Positions 25,428 through 34,450 of a DNA stretch of 34,450 nucleotides are shown piece after piece. Source of the stretch: Actinomycetota bacterium (GTDB lineage: Bacteria > Actinomycetota > Actinomycetes > Streptosporangiales > Streptosporangiaceae); the NCBI GenBank assembly GCA_021324595.1, contig JAJPIV010000006.1, positions 1 through 34,450 of the forward strand. Reading direction: 5' to 3'. A program made the position numbers and the translations under genes. The notes beneath the pieces were generated by a model that worked only from the letters and a program-made list of their open reading frames with translations, was not told the origin of the DNA and did not search any database. Positions within the stretch are counted from its first letter, which is position 1; every line of letters starts with the position of its first letter.

Positions 25428-26816
25428 ATGACCGGGCTGGAGTTGTTCGGCGGGCTGTTCGGGCGGGGCGGGGCGGACGCCGGTGACCGGGCGTGGCTGC
25501 AGGCGATGCTGGACGCCGAGGCGGCCCTCGCCCGCGCGGCCGAGCGCGCCGGGCTGGCACCGCCCGGGTCCGGAGCCGCGGTCACCGCCGTGGCGCGCGC
25601 CGAGCTCTTCGACGGCGCGGCCCTGGCCCGGCAGGCCGCGCAGGCGGGGAACCCGGTCCCGGCGCTGGTCAGGGCCCTGACCGCGGCGCTGCCGGCCGAG
25701 GCCGCCGGGGCCGCGCAGGCGGTCCACGCAGGCGCCACCAGCCAGGACATCATCGACACCGCGGCGATGCTGGTCGCCGCGCGGTCCACCGGCGCGATCC
25801 TCTCGGACCTCGCCACGGCCGCGGGGCACGCGGCCCGGCTGGCCGGCGAGCACGCCGGGACGGTGATGGCCGGCCGCACCCTGCTCCAGCAGGCCGTCCC
25901 GGTGACCTTCGGCCTGGTCGCCGCGGGCTGGCTGACCGCGATCGACGAGGCGAGGGCCGGCCTGCACCGGGTCCGCACCCAGCGCCTGGCGGTGCAGTTC
26001 GGCGGCGCGGCGGGCACGCTCGCCTCCCTCGGCCGGTCCGGCCCCGCCATCGCGGAGCTGCTCGCCGAGGAGCTCGGGCTGGCGGTCCCGGTGCTGCCCT
26101 GGCACACCGACCGGCTGCGGATCCTCGAGCTGGCCGCCGCGCTCGCCGGGGCCTGCGCCGCGCTCGGCAAGGTCGCCAGGGACGTCACCCTGCTCGCCCA
26201 GACCGAGGTGGGCGAGGCCGCCGAGGCCCTCGCCGGCGGCCGCGGCGGCTCGTCGGCGATGCCGCACAAGCAGAACCCGGTCGCCTCGGTCGTGCTCCTG
26301 GGCTGCGCCAAGCGCGCCCCGGGCCTGCTCGGCACGCTTGCCGCGGCCGCCGAGCAGGAGCACCAGCGCGCGGCCGGCGCCTGGCACGCCGAGTGGGAGC
26401 CGCTGTCCGACCTGCTGCGCCTCACCGGCTCGGCCGCCGCCTGGGGCGCGGACCTGCTGTCCGGCCTGCGGGTGGACGAGGCGAGGATGCGCGCCAACCT
26501 CGCGTCGGCCCGCGGCCTGCCCCTCGCGGAGAACCTGGCCGCCCTGCTCGCCCCCGCCCTCGGCCGCCTGGCCGCCCACGACCTGGTCGCCGCGGCGAGC
26601 AGGCGAGCCGCCCTGGGCCGCACCGGGCTGGCCGAGGCCCTGCTGGACGACGAGGACGCGGCGGCGGCGCTGCGCGGCGCGGGCCTGGGGCGCGAGCAGG
26701 TCGAGGCGGCCCTGCGGCCGGAGTCCTACCTGGGCGCCGCCGCCGAGTTCACCCGCCGCGCCCTGGCCGCCCACGCCGAGCGGGACGCCGCGCTGGCCCG
26801 CGTGGCCGGCCCGTAG
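25428..26816 (+). CDS. pcaB: 3-Carboxy-cis,cis-muconate cycloisomerase
   Basis: A 462-residue fumarase/aspartase-superfamily enzyme that converts beta-carboxy-muconate to gamma-carboxymuconolactone, the step after protocatechuate ring cleavage. The family signature GGSSAMPHKQNPVASVV lies at about 276-292. Also conserved are VHAGATSQDIIDTAAM and EHQRAAGAWHAEWEPLSDLLRLTGSA, the latter a strong match to PcaB rather than to adenylosuccinate lyase or fumarase. It starts at an ATG with no clear ribosome binding site; GATCAT lies 6 bases upstream and may be a weak -10 box. The stop codon TAG is part of the -10 box of the next gene. The gene opens the pca block. Confidence 0.93.
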   Translation: MTGLELFGGLFGRGGADAGDRAWLQAMLDAEAALARAAERAGLAPPGSGAAVTAVARAELFDGAALARQAAQAGNPVPALVRALTAALPAEAAGAAQAVHAGATSQDIIDTAAMLVAARSTGAILSDLATAAGHAARLAGEHAGTVMAGRTLLQQAVPVTFGLVAAGWLTAIDEARAGLHRVRTQRLAVQFGGAAGTLASLGRSGPAIAELLAEELGLAVPVLPWHTDRLRILELAAALAGACAALGKVARDVTLLAQTEVGEAAEALAGGRGGSSAMPHKQNPVASVVLLGCAKRAPGLLGTLAAAAEQEHQRAAGAWHAEWEPLSDLLRLTGSAAAWGADLLSGLRVDEARMRANLASARGLPLAENLAALLAPALGRLAAHDLVAAASRRAALGRTGLAEALLDDEDAAAALRGAGLGREQVEAALRPESYLGAAAEFTRRALAAHAERDAALARVAGP

Positions 26817-26825: not shown

Positions 26826-27206
26826 ATGAGCACCGATGACGAGCGCAGGGCCGCCGGCATGGCCGTCCGCCGCCAGGTCCTCGGCGACGAGCACGTCGAC
26901 CGGGCGACCGCGAGCGCGACGGAGTTCACCGGGCCGTTTCAGGACTTCATCACCCGCTACGCCTGGGGCGAGGTCTGGTCCCGCCCGGGCCTGACCCGCG
27001 CCGAGCGCAGCATGATCACGATCACGGCCCTGGCGGCGCTCGGCCGGGACTCCGAGCTCGCCATGCACGTGCGGGCGGCGCGGCGCAACGGGCTCACCCC
27101 GGACCAGATCCGCGAGGTGCTGCTCCAGGTCGCCGTCTACGCCGGGGTCCCGGCCGCCAACCACGCGTTCACGATCGCCGCCGGGGTCCTCGCCGAGGCT
27201 CCGTAG
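26826..27206 (+). CDS. pcaC: 4-Carboxymuconolactone decarboxylase
   Basis: A 126-residue CMD-family protein that decarboxylates gamma-carboxymuconolactone to the beta-ketoadipate enol-lactone. TGPFQDFITRYAWGEVWSRPGL is typical of PcaC. The core RAERSMITITALAALGRDSELAMHVRAARRNGL and QVAVYAGVPAANHAFTIAAGVL are conserved in the CMD family. Length is that of a stand-alone enzyme; in many actinobacteria this domain is fused to the lactonase as PcaL, whereas here pcaD is separate. The ATG follows a -10 box at 6 bases and has no ribosome binding site. It is 10 bases after pcaB. Confidence 0.93.
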   Translation: MSTDDERRAAGMAVRRQVLGDEHVDRATASATEFTGPFQDFITRYAWGEVWSRPGLTRAERSMITITALAALGRDSELAMHVRAARRNGLTPDQIREVLLQVAVYAGVPAANHAFTIAAGVLAEAP

Positions 27207-27215
27207 ACCGCACAG

Positions 27216-27244
27216 TTGTTCACTAGGCGCCCTAACGATATCGT
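27216..27244 (+). promoter_or_regulatory. Promoter of the pcaI operon
   Basis: TTGTTC (27216-27221) and TATCGT (27239-27244) are separated by 17 bases and look like a housekeeping-type promoter with transcription start near 27251. An AGGAGGGG ribosome binding site follows at 27261-27268 before the TTG at 27279. Confidence 0.5.
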
Positions 27245-27245
27245 T
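27234..27245. promoter_or_regulatory. Palindromic operator candidate over the pcaI -10 box
   Basis: AACGATATCGTT is a perfect 12-base palindrome that covers the -10 box of the pcaI promoter. A repressor bound here would block RNA polymerase. The IclR-family gene at 31093 is the natural candidate, since IclR regulators often control pca genes and bind short palindromes, but binding is an inference. Confidence 0.5.
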
Positions 27246-27278: not shown

Positions 27279-28010
27279 TTGGCTGAGATCGTGTCGCTGG
27301 CCGAGGCCGTGGCCGCGGCCATCGGCGACGGGGACACCGTGGCGATGGAGGGCTTCACGCACCTGATCCCGCACGCCGCCGGGCACGAGGTGATCAGGCA
27401 GGGCCTGCGGGACCTCACCCTGGTCAGGATGACGCCCGACATCATCTACGACCAGCTGATCGGCGCCGGGTGCGCCCGCAAGCTGGTGTTCTCCTGGGCC
27501 GGCAACCCGGGCGTGGGCTCCCTTCACCGCTTCCGCGACGCCGTCGAGCACGGCTGGCCGGTGCCGCTGGAGATCGAGGAGCACAGCCACGCCGGCATGG
27601 CGAACCGGTACGCGGCGGGAGCGGCCGGCCTGCCGTTCGCGGTGATGCGGGGATACCGGGGAACGAGCCTGGCCAGCCAGACGGCCGGGGTGGCCGAGGT
27701 CACCTGCCCGTTCACCGGCGAGGTGCTCACCGCCGTCTCGGCGCTCCGCCCCGACGTGGCGGTGATCCACGCCCAGCGCGCCGACCGGGCGGGCAACGTC
27801 CAGTTCTGGGGCATCACCGGAGTGCAGAAGGAGGCCGTCCTGGCCTCCGCGCGCTCGGTGGTCACGGTCGAGGAGATCGTGGACGAGCTCGACCCGCGGC
27901 CCAACGCGGTGGTGCTCCCCTCCTGGGTGGTCGGCTGGGTGGCGCTGGCCCCGGGCGGAGCGCACCCGTCCTACGCCCTGGGCTACTCGGCCAGGGACAA
28001 TGACTTCTAA
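27279..28010 (+). CDS. pcaI: 3-Oxoadipate CoA-transferase subunit A, prematurely stopped
   Basis: A 243-residue alpha subunit of a family I CoA-transferase that, with subunit B, moves CoA from succinyl-CoA to beta-ketoadipate. Recognisable blocks include DTVAMEGFTHLIPHAAGHEVIRQG, LVRMTPDIIYDQLIGAGCARKLVFSW, EEHSHAGMANRYAAGAAGLPFAVMRGY and ITGVQKEAVLASARSVVTVEEIVDEL. The frame ends at TAA (28008-28010) after SARDNDF, yet the same frame continues without further stops for 34 codons reading VAWDAISRDRDRFAAWLDEH, which is the family's normal C-terminus. The stop therefore looks like a nonsense change from TAC or TAT. The start is TTG at 27279 with AGGAGG 12 bases upstream; a GTG at 27291 is an alternative. 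The pcaI name relies on context. Confidence 0.85.
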   Translation: MAEIVSLAEAVAAAIGDGDTVAMEGFTHLIPHAAGHEVIRQGLRDLTLVRMTPDIIYDQLIGAGCARKLVFSWAGNPGVGSLHRFRDAVEHGWPVPLEIEEHSHAGMANRYAAGAAGLPFAVMRGYRGTSLASQTAGVAEVTCPFTGEVLTAVSALRPDVAVIHAQRADRAGNVQFWGITGVQKEAVLASARSVVTVEEIVDELDPRPNAVVLPSWVVGWVALAPGGAHPSYALGYSARDNDF

Positions 28011-28115
28011 GTGGCGTGGGACGCGATCAGCCGGGACCGGGACAGGTTCGCCGCATGGCTGGACGAGCACGTGTACCGGCGCCCGGCCCTGGCGAGCGCG
28101 GAGGAGGCCCGGTGA
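28011..28115 (+). pseudogene. Detached C-terminal end of pcaI after the in-frame stop
   Basis: Thirty-four codons in frame with pcaI encode VAWDAISRDRDRFAAWLDEH followed by VYRRPALASAEEAR and end at TGA (28113-28115). That stop overlaps the pcaJ GTG (28112) by 4 bases, the same GTGA or ATGA coupling used at the other gene borders of this operon. This is what is expected if the original pcaI ended here. A GTG directly after the TAA could allow re-initiation, but no ribosome binding site is close. Confidence 0.75.
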
Positions 28116-28918
28116 GCTACACGTCCGACGAGATGATGACGGTCACGGCCGCCCGGACCCTGCGCAACGGCATGACCTGCTTCGTCGGGATCGGGCTGCC
28201 GAGCGAGGCCGCGAACCTGGCCCGCCGCACCCACGCCCCGGGCCTGGTGCTGATCTACGAGTCCGGCACGATCGGAGCCAAGCCGAGCGCCCTGCCCCTG
28301 TCGATCGGCGACGGCATCCTCGCCGAGACCGCCGACTGCGTGGTGAGCGTCCCGGAGATCTTCAACTACTGGCTCCAGCCGGGCCGGATCGACGTGGGCT
28401 TCCTCGGGGCCGCCCAGGTCGACCGGTTCGGCAACATCAACACCACCGCGATCGGCGGCGACTACGGCGCGCCCCGGGTCCGCCTGCCCGGCGCGGGCGG
28501 CGCCCCCGAGATCGCCGCGGCCTGCCGGGAGGTGACGATCGTGCTGCGGCAGTCGCCGCGTTCCTTCGTCGGGCGGGTGGACTTCGTCACCTCGGTGGGA
28601 TTCGGCGACGGCCCGGGCAGCCGGGAGCGGCTGGGCCTGACCGGGCACGGCCCCCGGCGGGTCATCACCGACCTTGGCGTGCTCGAGCCCGACCCGCGGA
28701 CCTGCGAGCTCGTGCTGACCGGCGTCTACCCCGGGGTCACGGTCCCCCAGGTGCGCGAGGGCACCGGCTGGGACCTGCGCGTCTCCGCCGGCCTGGCGAC
28801 GGTCCCGCCGCCCACCGACGCCGAGCTGGCGGCGCTCCGCGAGCTGCGCGCCGCGGGCCAGCATCACCCCCGATCAGCAACCGCAGGGAGTAGCCAGATG
28901 ACCGGAGCCATCCGATGA
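28112..28918 (+). CDS. pcaJ: 3-Oxoadipate CoA-transferase subunit B
   Basis: A 268-residue beta subunit. The catalytic glutamate is in LIYESGTIGAKP (Glu50), the ESG form used by the glutaconate-CoA-transferase-like branch rather than the SENG form of classic proteobacterial PcaJ. FVGIGLPSEAANLARRTHAP, GFLGAAQVDRFGNINTTAIGG and RVDFVTSVGFGDGP are family blocks. The GTG start overlaps the end of the extended pcaI frame by 4 bases, and the stop overlaps pcaH by 4 bases (ATGA), so it is translationally coupled on both sides. Substrate assignment to beta-ketoadipate comes from the surrounding pca genes. Confidence 0.9.
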   Translation: MSYTSDEMMTVTAARTLRNGMTCFVGIGLPSEAANLARRTHAPGLVLIYESGTIGAKPSALPLSIGDGILAETADCVVSVPEIFNYWLQPGRIDVGFLGAAQVDRFGNINTTAIGGDYGAPRVRLPGAGGAPEIAAACREVTIVLRQSPRSFVGRVDFVTSVGFGDGPGSRERLGLTGHGPRRVITDLGVLEPDPRTCELVLTGVYPGVTVPQVREGTGWDLRVSAGLATVPPPTDAELAALRELRAAGQHHPRSATAGSSQMTGAIR

Positions 28919-29664
28919 CCGCCGACCTGCGCCCGCCCGCGGGCGGGCGCCTGATCCTGCCCGGCTACCAGCGCCCGGCGGGCGTCCACCCGCCGCTGGA
29001 CTCACCCGAGTACCGGTCCTCGCGGCAGCGCGCCCCGCTGCGCCCGCTCGTGCCGCTGCCGCACGCGCTCACCGAGGTGACCGGGCCCCTGCTGGGCAGC
29101 GAGCGGGTGACCCCCGCCGACTCGGACCTGACCACCCGGCACGCCGGCGAGCCGCTCGGCGAGCGCATCATCGTGACCGGCCGGGTGCTCGACTCCGGCG
29201 GCCGGCCCGTGCCGGACACGCTGGTGGAGATCTGGCAGGCCAACGCGGCCGGGCGCTACCGTCATCAGGTCGACGACCACCCGGCCCCGCTGGACCCGAA
29301 CTTCGACGGCGCCGGCCGCTGCCTCACCGACTCGCTGGGCCGGTTCCGGTTCGTCACGATCAAGCCGGGCGCGTACCCGTGGCGGAACCACCTCAACGCC
29401 TGGCGGCCGGCGCACATCCACTTCTCGCTCTTCGGCCGCGCGTTCACCCAGCGCCTGGTGACCCAGATGTACTTCCCGGGCGACCCGCTCTTCCGGTACG
29501 ACCCGATCTTCAACTCGATCCCCGACGCTAAGGCCCGCCAGCGGCTGATCGCCACCTTCGACATGGACCTGACCGAGCCGGAGTGGGCGCTCGGCTACAG
29601 CTGGGACATCGTCCTGCGCGGACGGGAGGCGACCGTGTTCGAGAACGCCGGGGAGGGACGGTGA
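28915..29664 (+). CDS. pcaH: Protocatechuate 3,4-dioxygenase beta subunit
   Basis: A 249-residue intradiol dioxygenase subunit that carries the ferric iron and cleaves protocatechuate to beta-carboxy-cis,cis-muconate. The N-terminal PcaH domain begins PPLDSPEYRSSRQRAPLRPLVPLPHALTEVTGP. The four iron ligands are visible: Tyr115 in AGRYRH, Tyr154 in GAYPWRN, and His167 and His169 in RPAHIHFSLFG. GRVLDSGGRPVPDTLVEIWQANAAGRY is the intradiol signature. Length is normal. The ATG overlaps the pcaJ stop by 4 bases and the stop overlaps pcaG by 4 bases. Confidence 0.97.
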   Translation: MTADLRPPAGGRLILPGYQRPAGVHPPLDSPEYRSSRQRAPLRPLVPLPHALTEVTGPLLGSERVTPADSDLTTRHAGEPLGERIIVTGRVLDSGGRPVPDTLVEIWQANAAGRYRHQVDDHPAPLDPNFDGAGRCLTDSLGRFRFVTIKPGAYPWRNHLNAWRPAHIHFSLFGRAFTQRLVTQMYFPGDPLFRYDPIFNSIPDAKARQRLIATFDMDLTEPEWALGYSWDIVLRGREATVFENAGEGR

Positions 29665-30236
29665 GCGCGCAGGGCCTGCCCGTGACGCCGTCGCAGACGG
29701 TCGGGCCATACCTGGCGATCGGGCTGCCCTGGGAGGACGGGCCGTTCGTGGTTCCCGAGGGCACGCCGGGCGCGTTCGCCATCAGCGGCGTGGTGACCGA
29801 CGGGGACGGCGCGCCGGTGCCCGACGCGCTGATCGAGACCTGGCAGGCCGACCCGGACGGCCGGTTCGCCCACCCGGACGACCCGCGCGGGCCCGCCGCG
29901 CCGGCCGTCCCCGGCTTCCGGGGCTTCGGCCGGTGCCCCACCGACGGGCAGGGCAGGTACCGGATCGTGACCGTCCGCCCCGGGCCGCTGCCGGACCCGG
30001 GCGGCGGCACCGAGGCGCCGCACCTGGACGTGTCGGTGTTCGCGCGCGGGCTGCTCAACCGCGTGGTGACCAGGATCTACTTCCCCGACGAGGAGGCGGC
30101 CAACGCCGCCGACCCGGTGCTGGCCGCGGTCGAGCCCGGGCGCCGGGACACGCTGGTCGCGGTCGCCGAGCCCGGCGGGTTCCGGTTCGACATCAGGCTG
30201 CGGGGCGACCGCGAGACCGTGTTCTTCGATGTCTGA
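29661..30236 (+). CDS. pcaG: Protocatechuate 3,4-dioxygenase alpha subunit
   Basis: A 191-residue alpha subunit, structurally related to PcaH but lacking the iron ligands, which forms the heteromeric dioxygenase with it. LPVTPSQTVGPYLAIGLPWE is the typical PcaG opening, followed by GVVTDGDGAPVPDALIETWQADPDGRF and FRGFGRCPTDGQGRYRIVTVRPGP. LNRVVTRIYFPDEEAANAADPVL is the usual PcaG end region. At the iron-ligand positions it has HLDVSVFARG in place of HIHF. GTG start in a GTGA overlap with pcaH; the stop overlaps pcaD by 8 bases. Confidence 0.96.
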   Translation: MSAQGLPVTPSQTVGPYLAIGLPWEDGPFVVPEGTPGAFAISGVVTDGDGAPVPDALIETWQADPDGRFAHPDDPRGPAAPAVPGFRGFGRCPTDGQGRYRIVTVRPGPLPDPGGGTEAPHLDVSVFARGLLNRVVTRIYFPDEEAANAADPVLAAVEPGRRDTLVAVAEPGGFRFDIRLRGDRETVFFDV

Positions 30237-31056
30237 CGCTCCGGCCGCGGCGCCGGGCGCCGCGGCCCGGAGCCCGCGGGTCATGCCGCTGGCCGCGGCC
30301 ATCGACGGCGCCAGCGGGCCGGTGCTGATGCTCGGCAACTCGCTGGGCACGTCCCGCGCCCTCTGGAACCGCCAGGTCCCGGCCCTCGCCCGGCGGTTCC
30401 GCGTGCTGCGCTTCGAACTGCCCGGGCACGGCGGGGCGGCGGCCGAGCCCGGCCCGTACTCCATTGACGACCTCGGCGCGAGCGCGGTGGCGGTGCTCGA
30501 CTCGCTCGGCATCGAGCGCGCCGCCTACTGCGGGGTCTCGCTCGGCGGCATGATCGGGATGTGGATCGCCTCGCGCCACCCGGACCGGATCACCGCGCTC
30601 GGCCTGATCTGCACGTCGGCGTGGCTGCCGCCGGCCTCCGCATGGCTGGCCAGGGCGGGCGCGGTCCGGTCCGGCGGGATGGCCCCGGTCGTCGACCAGG
30701 TCGTCGCCCGCTGGTTCACCCCGGCCTACGCCGCGCGCGCGCCGGGCGTGCGGGCCGCGTTCGCCGACGGGCTCGGGCGCACCGACCCGGAGGGGTACGC
30801 GGCGTGCTGCGAGGCGATCGCGGGCCTGGACCTGCGTCCCCGGCTGGCTTCCATCACCGCGCCGACCCTGGTGATCGCCGGGTCCGAGGACCCGGCCACG
30901 CCTCCCGCGCACGGAGCGGCCATCGCCGCGGCGATCCCGCGGGCCCGGCTCGCGGTCGTGCGGGGGGCGGCGCACCTGGCGAACGTGTCCGCCGCGGCCG
31001 AGGTGACCGCCGCGCTGCTCGGCTTGCTCACGGGGGCGGACGGCGCGCGGCGGTAG
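30229..31056 (+). CDS. pcaD: 3-Oxoadipate enol-lactonase
   Basis: A 275-residue alpha/beta hydrolase that opens the beta-ketoadipate enol-lactone. The nucleophile elbow is CGVSLGGMIG with Ser104; the acid is probably in AGSEDPATPP and the base in GAAHLANVS. LMLGNSLGTSRALWNRQVPAL at the N-terminus and RFELPGHGGA are typical of PcaD. It is a free enzyme rather than the C-terminal half of a PcaL fusion. The ATG lies 8 bases inside pcaG, so it belongs to the same coupled string. About 17 extra N-terminal residues are Ala/Pro-rich. The regulator gene begins 36 bases after the stop. Confidence 0.92.
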   Translation: MSDAPAAAPGAAARSPRVMPLAAAIDGASGPVLMLGNSLGTSRALWNRQVPALARRFRVLRFELPGHGGAAAEPGPYSIDDLGASAVAVLDSLGIERAAYCGVSLGGMIGMWIASRHPDRITALGLICTSAWLPPASAWLARAGAVRSGGMAPVVDQVVARWFTPAYAARAPGVRAAFADGLGRTDPEGYAACCEAIAGLDLRPRLASITAPTLVIAGSEDPATPPAHGAAIAAAIPRARLAVVRGAAHLANVSAAAEVTAALLGLLTGADGARR

Positions 31057-31084: not shown

Positions 31085-31092
31085 TCATGGAG

Positions 31093-31938
31093 ATGAGAAC
31101 CTCCGGGCGCACAGCGAACGTCTCCGGGGGCCCGGCGGTCGCCGCCGCGGCCCGGGAGGGCGGCCAGGCGCGCGACAGCGACTTCGTGCAGTCACTGGAC
31201 CGCGGGCTGGCCGTGATCCGGGCATTCGGCCCCGACCGGGAGCGGCTGAGCCTGAGCGAGGTCGCCCGGGCCACCGGCCTGACCAGGGCGGCGGCCCGGC
31301 GCTTCCTGCTCACCCTGGTCAGGCTCGGGTACGTGCGCAGCGACGGCCGGGAGTTCTCGCTCCGGCCGAGGGTCCTCGAGCTCGGCTACGCGTACCTCTC
31401 GGGCCTGGCCATGCCCGAGATCGCGGCGCCGCACCTGGAGGAGCTCGTGGCGAAGCTGCACGAATCCTCCTCGATCTCGGTGCTCGACGGGCACCACATC
31501 GTCTACGTGGCCAGGGTCTCGACCAAGCGGATCATGACGGTCTCGATCTCGGTCGGCACCAGGTTCCCGGCGTTCGCGACCTCGATGGGCCGGGTGCTGC
31601 TCGCGGGCATGAGCGAGGAGGAGCTCGAGCGCTACCTGTCCGAGGCCACCTTCGAGGCGCTCACCCCCAACACCGTCACCGACCCCGCCGAGCTGAGGAC
31701 AATCGTGCGGAAGGTCGCCGAGCAGGGCTACGCGATCGTCGACCAGGAGCTTGAGGAGGGCCTGCGGGCGATCGCCGCCCCGATCAGGAACGCGGCGGGC
31801 GCCGTCATCGCCGCGATCAACGTGTCAGCGCATGCCAGCCGGGCCAGCGCGGAGAAGATGACGACCGAGCTGCTGCCCGCGCTGCTGGAGACCGCCCGCC
31901 AGATCGAGGCGGATCTGAAGGCGCAGGGCGCGGCCTGA
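31093..31938 (+). CDS. pcaR: IclR-family regulator, probable pca regulator
   Basis: A 281-residue IclR-type transcription factor. The winged helix-turn-helix (about 30-92) reads FVQSLDRGLAVIRAFG, LSLSEVARATGLTRAAARRFLLTLVRLGYV and ends at FSLRPRVLELGYAYLSG. The effector domain follows, with IAAPHLEELVAKLHESSSISVLDG, ISVGTRFPAFATSMGRVLLAG and GYAIVDQELEEGLRAIAAPIRN, the pattern of the PcaR/PobR subgroup. It lies at the end of the pca string, so it probably controls it in response to a pathway acid. An ATG two codons upstream (31087) is possible. The palindromes at 27234 and 32112 are possible binding sites. Confidence 0.88.
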   Translation: MRTSGRTANVSGGPAVAAAAREGGQARDSDFVQSLDRGLAVIRAFGPDRERLSLSEVARATGLTRAAARRFLLTLVRLGYVRSDGREFSLRPRVLELGYAYLSGLAMPEIAAPHLEELVAKLHESSSISVLDGHHIVYVARVSTKRIMTVSISVGTRFPAFATSMGRVLLAGMSEEELERYLSEATFEALTPNTVTDPAELRTIVRKVAEQGYAIVDQELEEGLRAIAAPIRNAAGAVIAAINVSAHASRASAEKMTTELLPALLETARQIEADLKAQGAA

Positions 31939-33620: not shown

Positions 33621-34450
33621 GTGACTGAGACCGGCACGGCCCTGCTGGAGCTGTCGGACCTGTCCAAGAGCTTCGGCAGGGTCGTCGTCGCGGACCGGCT
33701 GAGCCTGCGGATCGGGGCGGGCGACCTGGTGGGCATCGTCGGGCCGAACGGAGCCGGCAAGACCAGCCTGTTCGGGCTGATCGGCGGCCAGCTGGCGCCG
33801 GACGGCGGCGAGATAGCCTTCGCGGGGACGGCAATCACCAGGCTCGACGCCGCCGCGCGCTGCCGCATGGGCATCGGCCGCACCTTCCAGGTGCCCCGGC
33901 CGTTCGCGGGCATGACCGTGTTCGAGAACGTGCTGGTCGCCGCGCAGCAGGGCGCCGGGCTGGCGCGCCGGGCCAGCTACGCCACCGCGGCGGACGTGCT
34001 CGACCGGACCGGCCTGGCGGCACTGGCGAACACGCCAGCCGAGCGGCTCGGCCTGCTCCAGCGCAAGCGCCTCGAGATGGCCAGGGCGCTGGCCAGCGGC
34101 CCGCGGCTGCTGCTGCTCGACGAGGTCGCCGGCGGCCTCACCGACCTGGAGGTGGACGAGCTCGTCCGGATCGTCCGCTCGGTCCACGGCCAGGGCATCG
34201 CGATCATCTGGATCGAGCACGTGGTGCACGCGCTCGCCCGCACCGTGAGCAGGCTCATCTGCCTGGCGGGCGGATCGGTCATCGGCGATGGGGAGCCCGG
34301 CGCCGTGCTGGCCGAGCCGGCCGTCCGCGAGGTGTTCCTCGGAACCGAGGTGAGCACGTCGCTGCTCGGCATCGGCCCGCCGGGCCAGGCCGCATCACCG
34401 GGCCAGGCCGCATCACCGGGCCAGGCCGCATCACCGGGCCAGGCCGCATC
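33621..34450 (+). CDS. LivG-like ABC transporter ATPase (runs off the window)
   Basis: At least 276 residues; no stop before the window ends. Walker A GPNGAGKT (41-48), Q-loop RTFQ (87-90), Walker B LLLLDE (163-168) and H-loop IEHVVH (His200) are present. The signature is LGLLQ (143-147, in LGLLQRKRLEMARAL) instead of LSGGQ; I believe this is a subgroup trait, since the rest is intact. The C-terminal GEPGAVLAEPAVREVFLG is the usual LivG end, so the normal protein would stop at about 250. Instead a hexapeptide repeat PGQAAS begins at residue 254. The GTG has AGGGA 6 bases upstream. It is 23 bases after the binding protein. The repeat may link to a second domain. Confidence 0.9.
   Translation, partial: MTETGTALLELSDLSKSFGRVVVADRLSLRIGAGDLVGIVGPNGAGKTSLFGLIGGQLAPDGGEIAFAGTAITRLDAAARCRMGIGRTFQVPRPFAGMTVFENVLVAAQQGAGLARRASYATAADVLDRTGLAALANTPAERLGLLQRKRLEMARALASGPRLLLLDEVAGGLTDLEVDELVRIVRSVHGQGIAIIWIEHVVHALARTVSRLICLAGGSVIGDGEPGAVLAEPAVREVFLGTEVSTSLLGIGPPGQAASPGQAASPGQAASPGQAA
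34380..34450 (+). repeat. 18-base tandem repeat in the ATPase gene, at the window edge
   Basis: The unit CCGGGCCAGGCCGCATCA is repeated perfectly at 34380, 34398 and 34416, with a fourth copy (34434-34450) cut by the window end. It is in frame and encodes PGQAAS each time. The true copy number is not visible. Perfect identity suggests recent expansion or slippage. Confidence 0.9.

Follow-up and report, generated by a model that had tools for sequence, protein, structure and literature searches.

A private in-frame TAA in the CoA-transferase subunit A gene of an actinomycete pca operon, probably a wrong base in a draft genome

The stretch of DNA analysed here ("the window"; 34,450 nucleotides) is the entire contig C69 of a draft actinomycete genome (4,086,512 bases in 168 contigs, 96.93% complete with 4.08% contamination) and raises the question of why one gene in an otherwise intact operon for protocatechuate breakdown, encoding a CoA-transferase subunit A, is cut by a TAA 34 codons before the end of its frame. 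We argue below that this stop is probably a wrong base in the draft consensus, due to sequencing or assembly error, in an otherwise ordinary and intact gene.

The interrupted gene and its operon

The features of the locus, all on the forward strand, are as follows.

25428..26816, +, pcaB, 3-carboxy-cis,cis-muconate cycloisomerase, intact (TIGR02426 354.2 bits, cut-off 355.75)
26826..27206, +, pcaC, 4-carboxymuconolactone decarboxylase, intact (TIGR02425 over cut-off)
27279..28010, +, cut frame of CoA-transferase subunit A, pcaI by operon context (TTG start, 243 codons, TAA; PF01144 78.6 bits)
28008..28010, +, in-frame TAA (Tyr in 109/109 non-self loci)
28011..28115, +, same-frame continuation, the conserved C-terminal tail of subunit A (34 codons and TGA)
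28112..28918, +, CoA-transferase subunit B, pcaJ by context, with a GTG start in a GTGA overlap (PF01144 140.6 bits)
28915..29664, +, pcaH, protocatechuate 3,4-dioxygenase beta subunit, intact (TIGR02422 over cut-off)
29661..30236, +, pcaG, protocatechuate 3,4-dioxygenase alpha subunit, intact (TIGR02423 over cut-off)
30229..31056, +, pcaD, 3-oxoadipate enol-lactonase, intact (TIGR02427 over cut-off)
31087..31938, +, PcaR/PcaU-type regulator, intact (TIGR02431 over cut-off)

Directly after the TAA the subunit A frame resumes as VAWDAISRDRDRFAAWLDEH and stays open to the TGA at 28113–28115, which overlaps the GTG of subunit B (28112) as GTGA, confirming the view of the first-pass annotation that the stop interrupts a longer gene. 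Its remark that this junction resembles the operon's other gene borders is true only in part: pcaJ and pcaH share an ATGA, pcaH and pcaG a GTGA, and pcaG and pcaD overlap by 8 bases, whereas gaps of 9 and 72 bases separate pcaB from pcaC and pcaC from pcaI. The latter gap contains a perfect 12-base palindrome, AACGATATCGTT (27234–27245), the surroundings of which are kept as CGATATCGTTTCGG in three same-genus relatives and as GATATCGTTTCGG in the fourth. This palindrome, which is absent from two Micromonospora sequences, may serve the PcaR-type regulator as an operator or belong to a promoter.

The neighbours of subunit A are open frames spanning nearly all of their respective family profiles, and their order (pcaB, pcaC, A, B, pcaH, pcaG, pcaD, PcaR-type regulator) places the two subunits where the CoA-transferase of a pca operon is found. 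Subunit A itself is a family I CoA-transferase by its PF01144 score (gathering cut-off 23). Against the PcaI/ScoA model TIGR02429, it reaches only 51.6 bits as cut and 51.0 bits when read through (cut-off 128.5), and subunit B obtains 41 bits against the pcaJ-type model TIGR02428 (cut-off 243.55). The best match among solved structures is 1poi_A, the subunit A of glutaconate CoA-transferase, and 5mzw_A, an AibA-type subunit A, is also among the nearest chains; both alignments span the tail. The name pcaI therefore rests on operon context, from which a 3-oxoadipate:succinyl-CoA transferase activity can be predicted. Both subunits are of the CoA-transferase type seen in actinobacterial pca operons, which is closer by sequence to glutaconate CoA-transferase and would be missed in annotation by the NCBIfam models for PcaI and PcaJ.

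The stop column and the tail among relatives

We compared 111 loci carrying the subunit A gene, two of which are the window itself, leaving 109 non-self loci. The loci were drawn from the genomes of 100 relatives, in which 30 were retained (the window included), and from the best 80 of 565 contig matches, so that the sample represents the closest relatives rather than the whole family. Every non-self locus has tyrosine at the stop column (109/109; TAC in 91 and TAT in 8 of the 99 distinct coding sequences), and the TAA is therefore private to the present genome. The gene is otherwise intact, and the earlier proposal that a single base change from TAC or TAT accounts for the stop is well supported. 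In none of the 109 loci does the protein end at SARDNDF, an outcome that would have spoken against an interrupted gene. Instead, the relatives' frames continue for 20 to 57 codons past the tyrosine (median 28) and 90 of the 99 distinct sequences end in an ATGA, GTGA or TTGA overlap as at 28112–28115. The subunit A frame of the window opens with TTG (27279–27281); the 99 distinct relatives have ATG (68), GTG (21), TTG (5) or another codon (5) at this position.

The tail itself also bears out the view of the first-pass annotation that the downstream codons resemble the family C-terminus, and a lack of family similarity was looked for and not found. Residues W247, D248, R254, F257 and W260 are 100% conserved across the 99 distinct sequences, though the commonest residue per column accounts on average for 72% of sequences in the tail compared to 85% in the core. 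Relative to the closest relative (L003), codons 245–267 differ by 6 synonymous and 2 non-synonymous changes and codons 2–243 by 74 and 25, so that the tail does not look decayed in this comparison. A tail that still appears conserved implies that the stop either arose very recently or is not real. When the read-through protein was modelled as a monomer with AlphaFold2 (34 sequences; mean pLDDT 82.4), residues 241–251 and 254–265 formed helices (block pLDDT 74–87), and the TAA would remove most of the former and all of the latter. No second subunit A was detected in the assembly at E<=0.001.

Other mid-gene stops in the draft genome

The named records that lie nearest to this genome come from metagenome bins, under the labels Streptosporangiales, Streptosporangiaceae or just Actinomycetes/Actinobacteria bacterium, and it is presumably a metagenome bin as well. 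The window and contig C63 of the same genome share 71 identical bases, at the end of the former (34380–34450) and the beginning of the latter. An overlap of this kind is what k-mer assemblers leave and suggests a short-read assembly, and C63 may follow C69.

A scan of 410,920 bases of the genome against genes called in relatives covered 130,635 bases and flagged 22 in-frame stops. Two lie in well-matched genes and were counted (pcaI, and rbfA on contig C10). The other 20 were set aside by eye as match ends, poorly matching flanks or shadow frames, including one on the minus strand of L153 (15721) with a single relative. With codon-usage gene calls, no frameshifts were found in the 130,635 bases covered. 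Earlier disruption scans against relatives had been flooded by antisense-frame matches, and frameshift candidates on L150 (four, then two, with one relative each) disappeared once the comparison was restricted to codon-usage gene calls.

A second scan required no relatives and searched for stops inside frames whose codon bias is strong both before and after the stop. It returned 11 candidates in 1,046,098 bases of the genome (a 26% sample), of which we read four as mid-gene stops, a lower bound given that the scan sees only stops with such flanks. Besides pcaI, these are the following.

L151 19345, −, mid-gene stop in rbfA (contig C10; seen in both scans; intact in the same genus)
L356 16432, −, mid-gene stop in purL (contig C27; only copy at E<=1e-30; intact in the same genus)
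L338 3181, −, mid-gene stop in an mmdA/acyl-CoA carboxylase-like gene (contig C51; intact in the same genus)

The carboxylase-like gene has two more distant paralogues in the genome (43% and 37%). Among the candidates dropped, PaaA|PaaB proved to be the junction of two families, a natural TAG|GTG without a gap, and downstream of the MshB|next gene junction no family was recognised. The rplE|rpsN, YraN|comM, regulator|kinase and Trm112-like start candidates are presumably junctions, and an ambiguous candidate on the minus strand of L144 (9608) was dropped before counting. The TAA in pcaI is private to one assembly and accompanied by three similar private stops in a 26% sample, the pattern expected of an assembly or sequencing artefact. 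Applied to the relatives' DNA (169 loci, 635,476 distinct 40-mers), the same scan gave four hits and no clear mid-gene stop; three of these look like junctions and one (L275) is ambiguous. The contrast between four stops in 1,042,621 distinct 40-mers of the genome and no clear one in the relatives' 635,476 is not significant by itself, as all four would fall in the genome's own share by chance with a probability of about 0.15.

The four stops also share a class of base change. Same-genus relatives have TAC, GAG/GAA, TCG and GAG/GAA at the four sites, so that each stop fits a single G:C to T:A change, a class comprising 49.8% of all single-base routes to a stop in 710 called genes. Finding all four in this class has a p value of 0.061 at equal rates, falling to 0.009 with transitions three times faster and to 0.0025 with transitions five times faster, which we regard as weak evidence. 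All four also lie at CpG (p 0.12), though this means little given that 59% of such routes do so. A loss of MutY or Fpg was considered and rejected, as both the MutY-like and the Fpg frames are free of stops. The MutY-like hits are below the model cut-off in all 5 members of the genus and Fpg is over its cut-off; a repair-deficient lineage is thus not indicated.

Wrong base, real mutation or recoding

Wrong consensus bases would account for a stop confined to one genome, for a tail without decay, and for further stops in housekeeping genes that share its class of change. One base class recurring in several housekeeping genes is what wrong bases would be expected to produce and is difficult to reconcile with a living population. 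Points against the error reading are that loss of rbfA is tolerable in some bacteria and that the comparison with relatives' genes showed no frameshift. The simplest chemistry would be oxidised guanine in the sequencing library, giving rise to C to A and G to T errors, and we infer that the organism's own DNA lacks the TAA. One study attributes C:G to A:T errors to shearing (PMC5521083). Among the causes that the first-pass annotation had left open, the pattern across the draft favours error over real mutation, if not decisively, while readthrough and re-initiation find no support.

The strongest competitor, which we consider possible but clearly less likely, is a real and very recent nonsense mutation, either fixed or carried by one strain whose variant entered the assembly. 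The base is, after all, present in the assembly, one change suffices, and the gene belongs to a dispensable catabolic pathway of which the seven other pca genes are intact, as a recent loss would leave them. With most of two modelled C-terminal helices gone and no second subunit A to replace them, such a mutation would probably disable the CoA-transferase step of protocatechuate breakdown. It would leave unexplained the same-class stops in single-copy purL, in rbfA and in the carboxylase-like gene, and the tail is without decay, as it would also be if the mutation were very young. An improbable extension would have the lineage collecting real G:C to T:A nonsense alleles, as a mutator or as a population exposed to oxidative stress and only weakly selected; if true, pcaI, rbfA, purL and the carboxylase-like gene would have been caught early, before decay.

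Even less probable is that ribosomes read through the TAA, or start afresh at the GTG next to it (TAAGTG), so that a full or a split subunit A is made. The conserved tail and the GTG adjoining the stop fit this idea, and the paaA|paaB junction is a natural precedent for a gapless restart in this genome. However, none of the 41 tRNA genes found in this incomplete genome, where a further one may have gone unseen, has the anticodon TTA, CTA or TCA, and TAA and TAG are ordinary stops here, closing 27 and 174 of the 710 called genes. Furthermore, none of the 109 relatives has a stop at the column, so that there is no conserved readthrough signal, and the residues that relatives have at the four stops differ (Tyr, Glu, Ser, Glu). 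With no stop-reading tRNA gene among the 41 and such mixed replaced residues, we also rejected code reassignment and a suppressor tRNA. A weak tRNA-like gene on contig C7 (L169 205–278, minus strand, 41.5 bits) was called as a tRNA-Phe with the unusual anticodon AAA.

That the protein naturally ends at residue 243, with the 34 codons beyond the stop no part of it, is hardly credible: the PF01144 and TIGR02429 matches do stop at residues 218–219, read-through adds no score and conservation is on average lower in the tail than in the core, but no non-self locus ends there, five tail residues are invariant, the shortest tail after the tyrosine has 20 codons, and the alignments to 1poi_A and 5mzw_A extend through it.

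The wrong-base reading has practical consequences. At face value, the draft would be annotated as lacking complete protocatechuate breakdown or purine synthesis through single bases, and a count of mid-gene stops together with their class of change would be a cheap quality check for drafts.

In its isolated stops, its intact conserved genes and their occurrence several times per draft, the case resembles the spurious internal-stop pseudogenes described by Cooley and Wright 2024 (PMC11017572), according to which many such pseudogenes arise from assembly, the problem is worse at low coverage and high coverage is needed; the cause was tested there by reassembly and simulation, while here we infer it. 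Among solved structures, 1poi_A and 5mzw_A are the nearest chains and align through the tail, yet they are distant by sequence, and the substrate is predicted here from the operon alone. The gene also resembles the subunit A of other actinobacterial pca operons, with which it shares its PF01144 domain, its place between pcaC and subunit B, its tail and its junction with subunit B, and from which it differs by the cut at codon 244 in the present assembly only.
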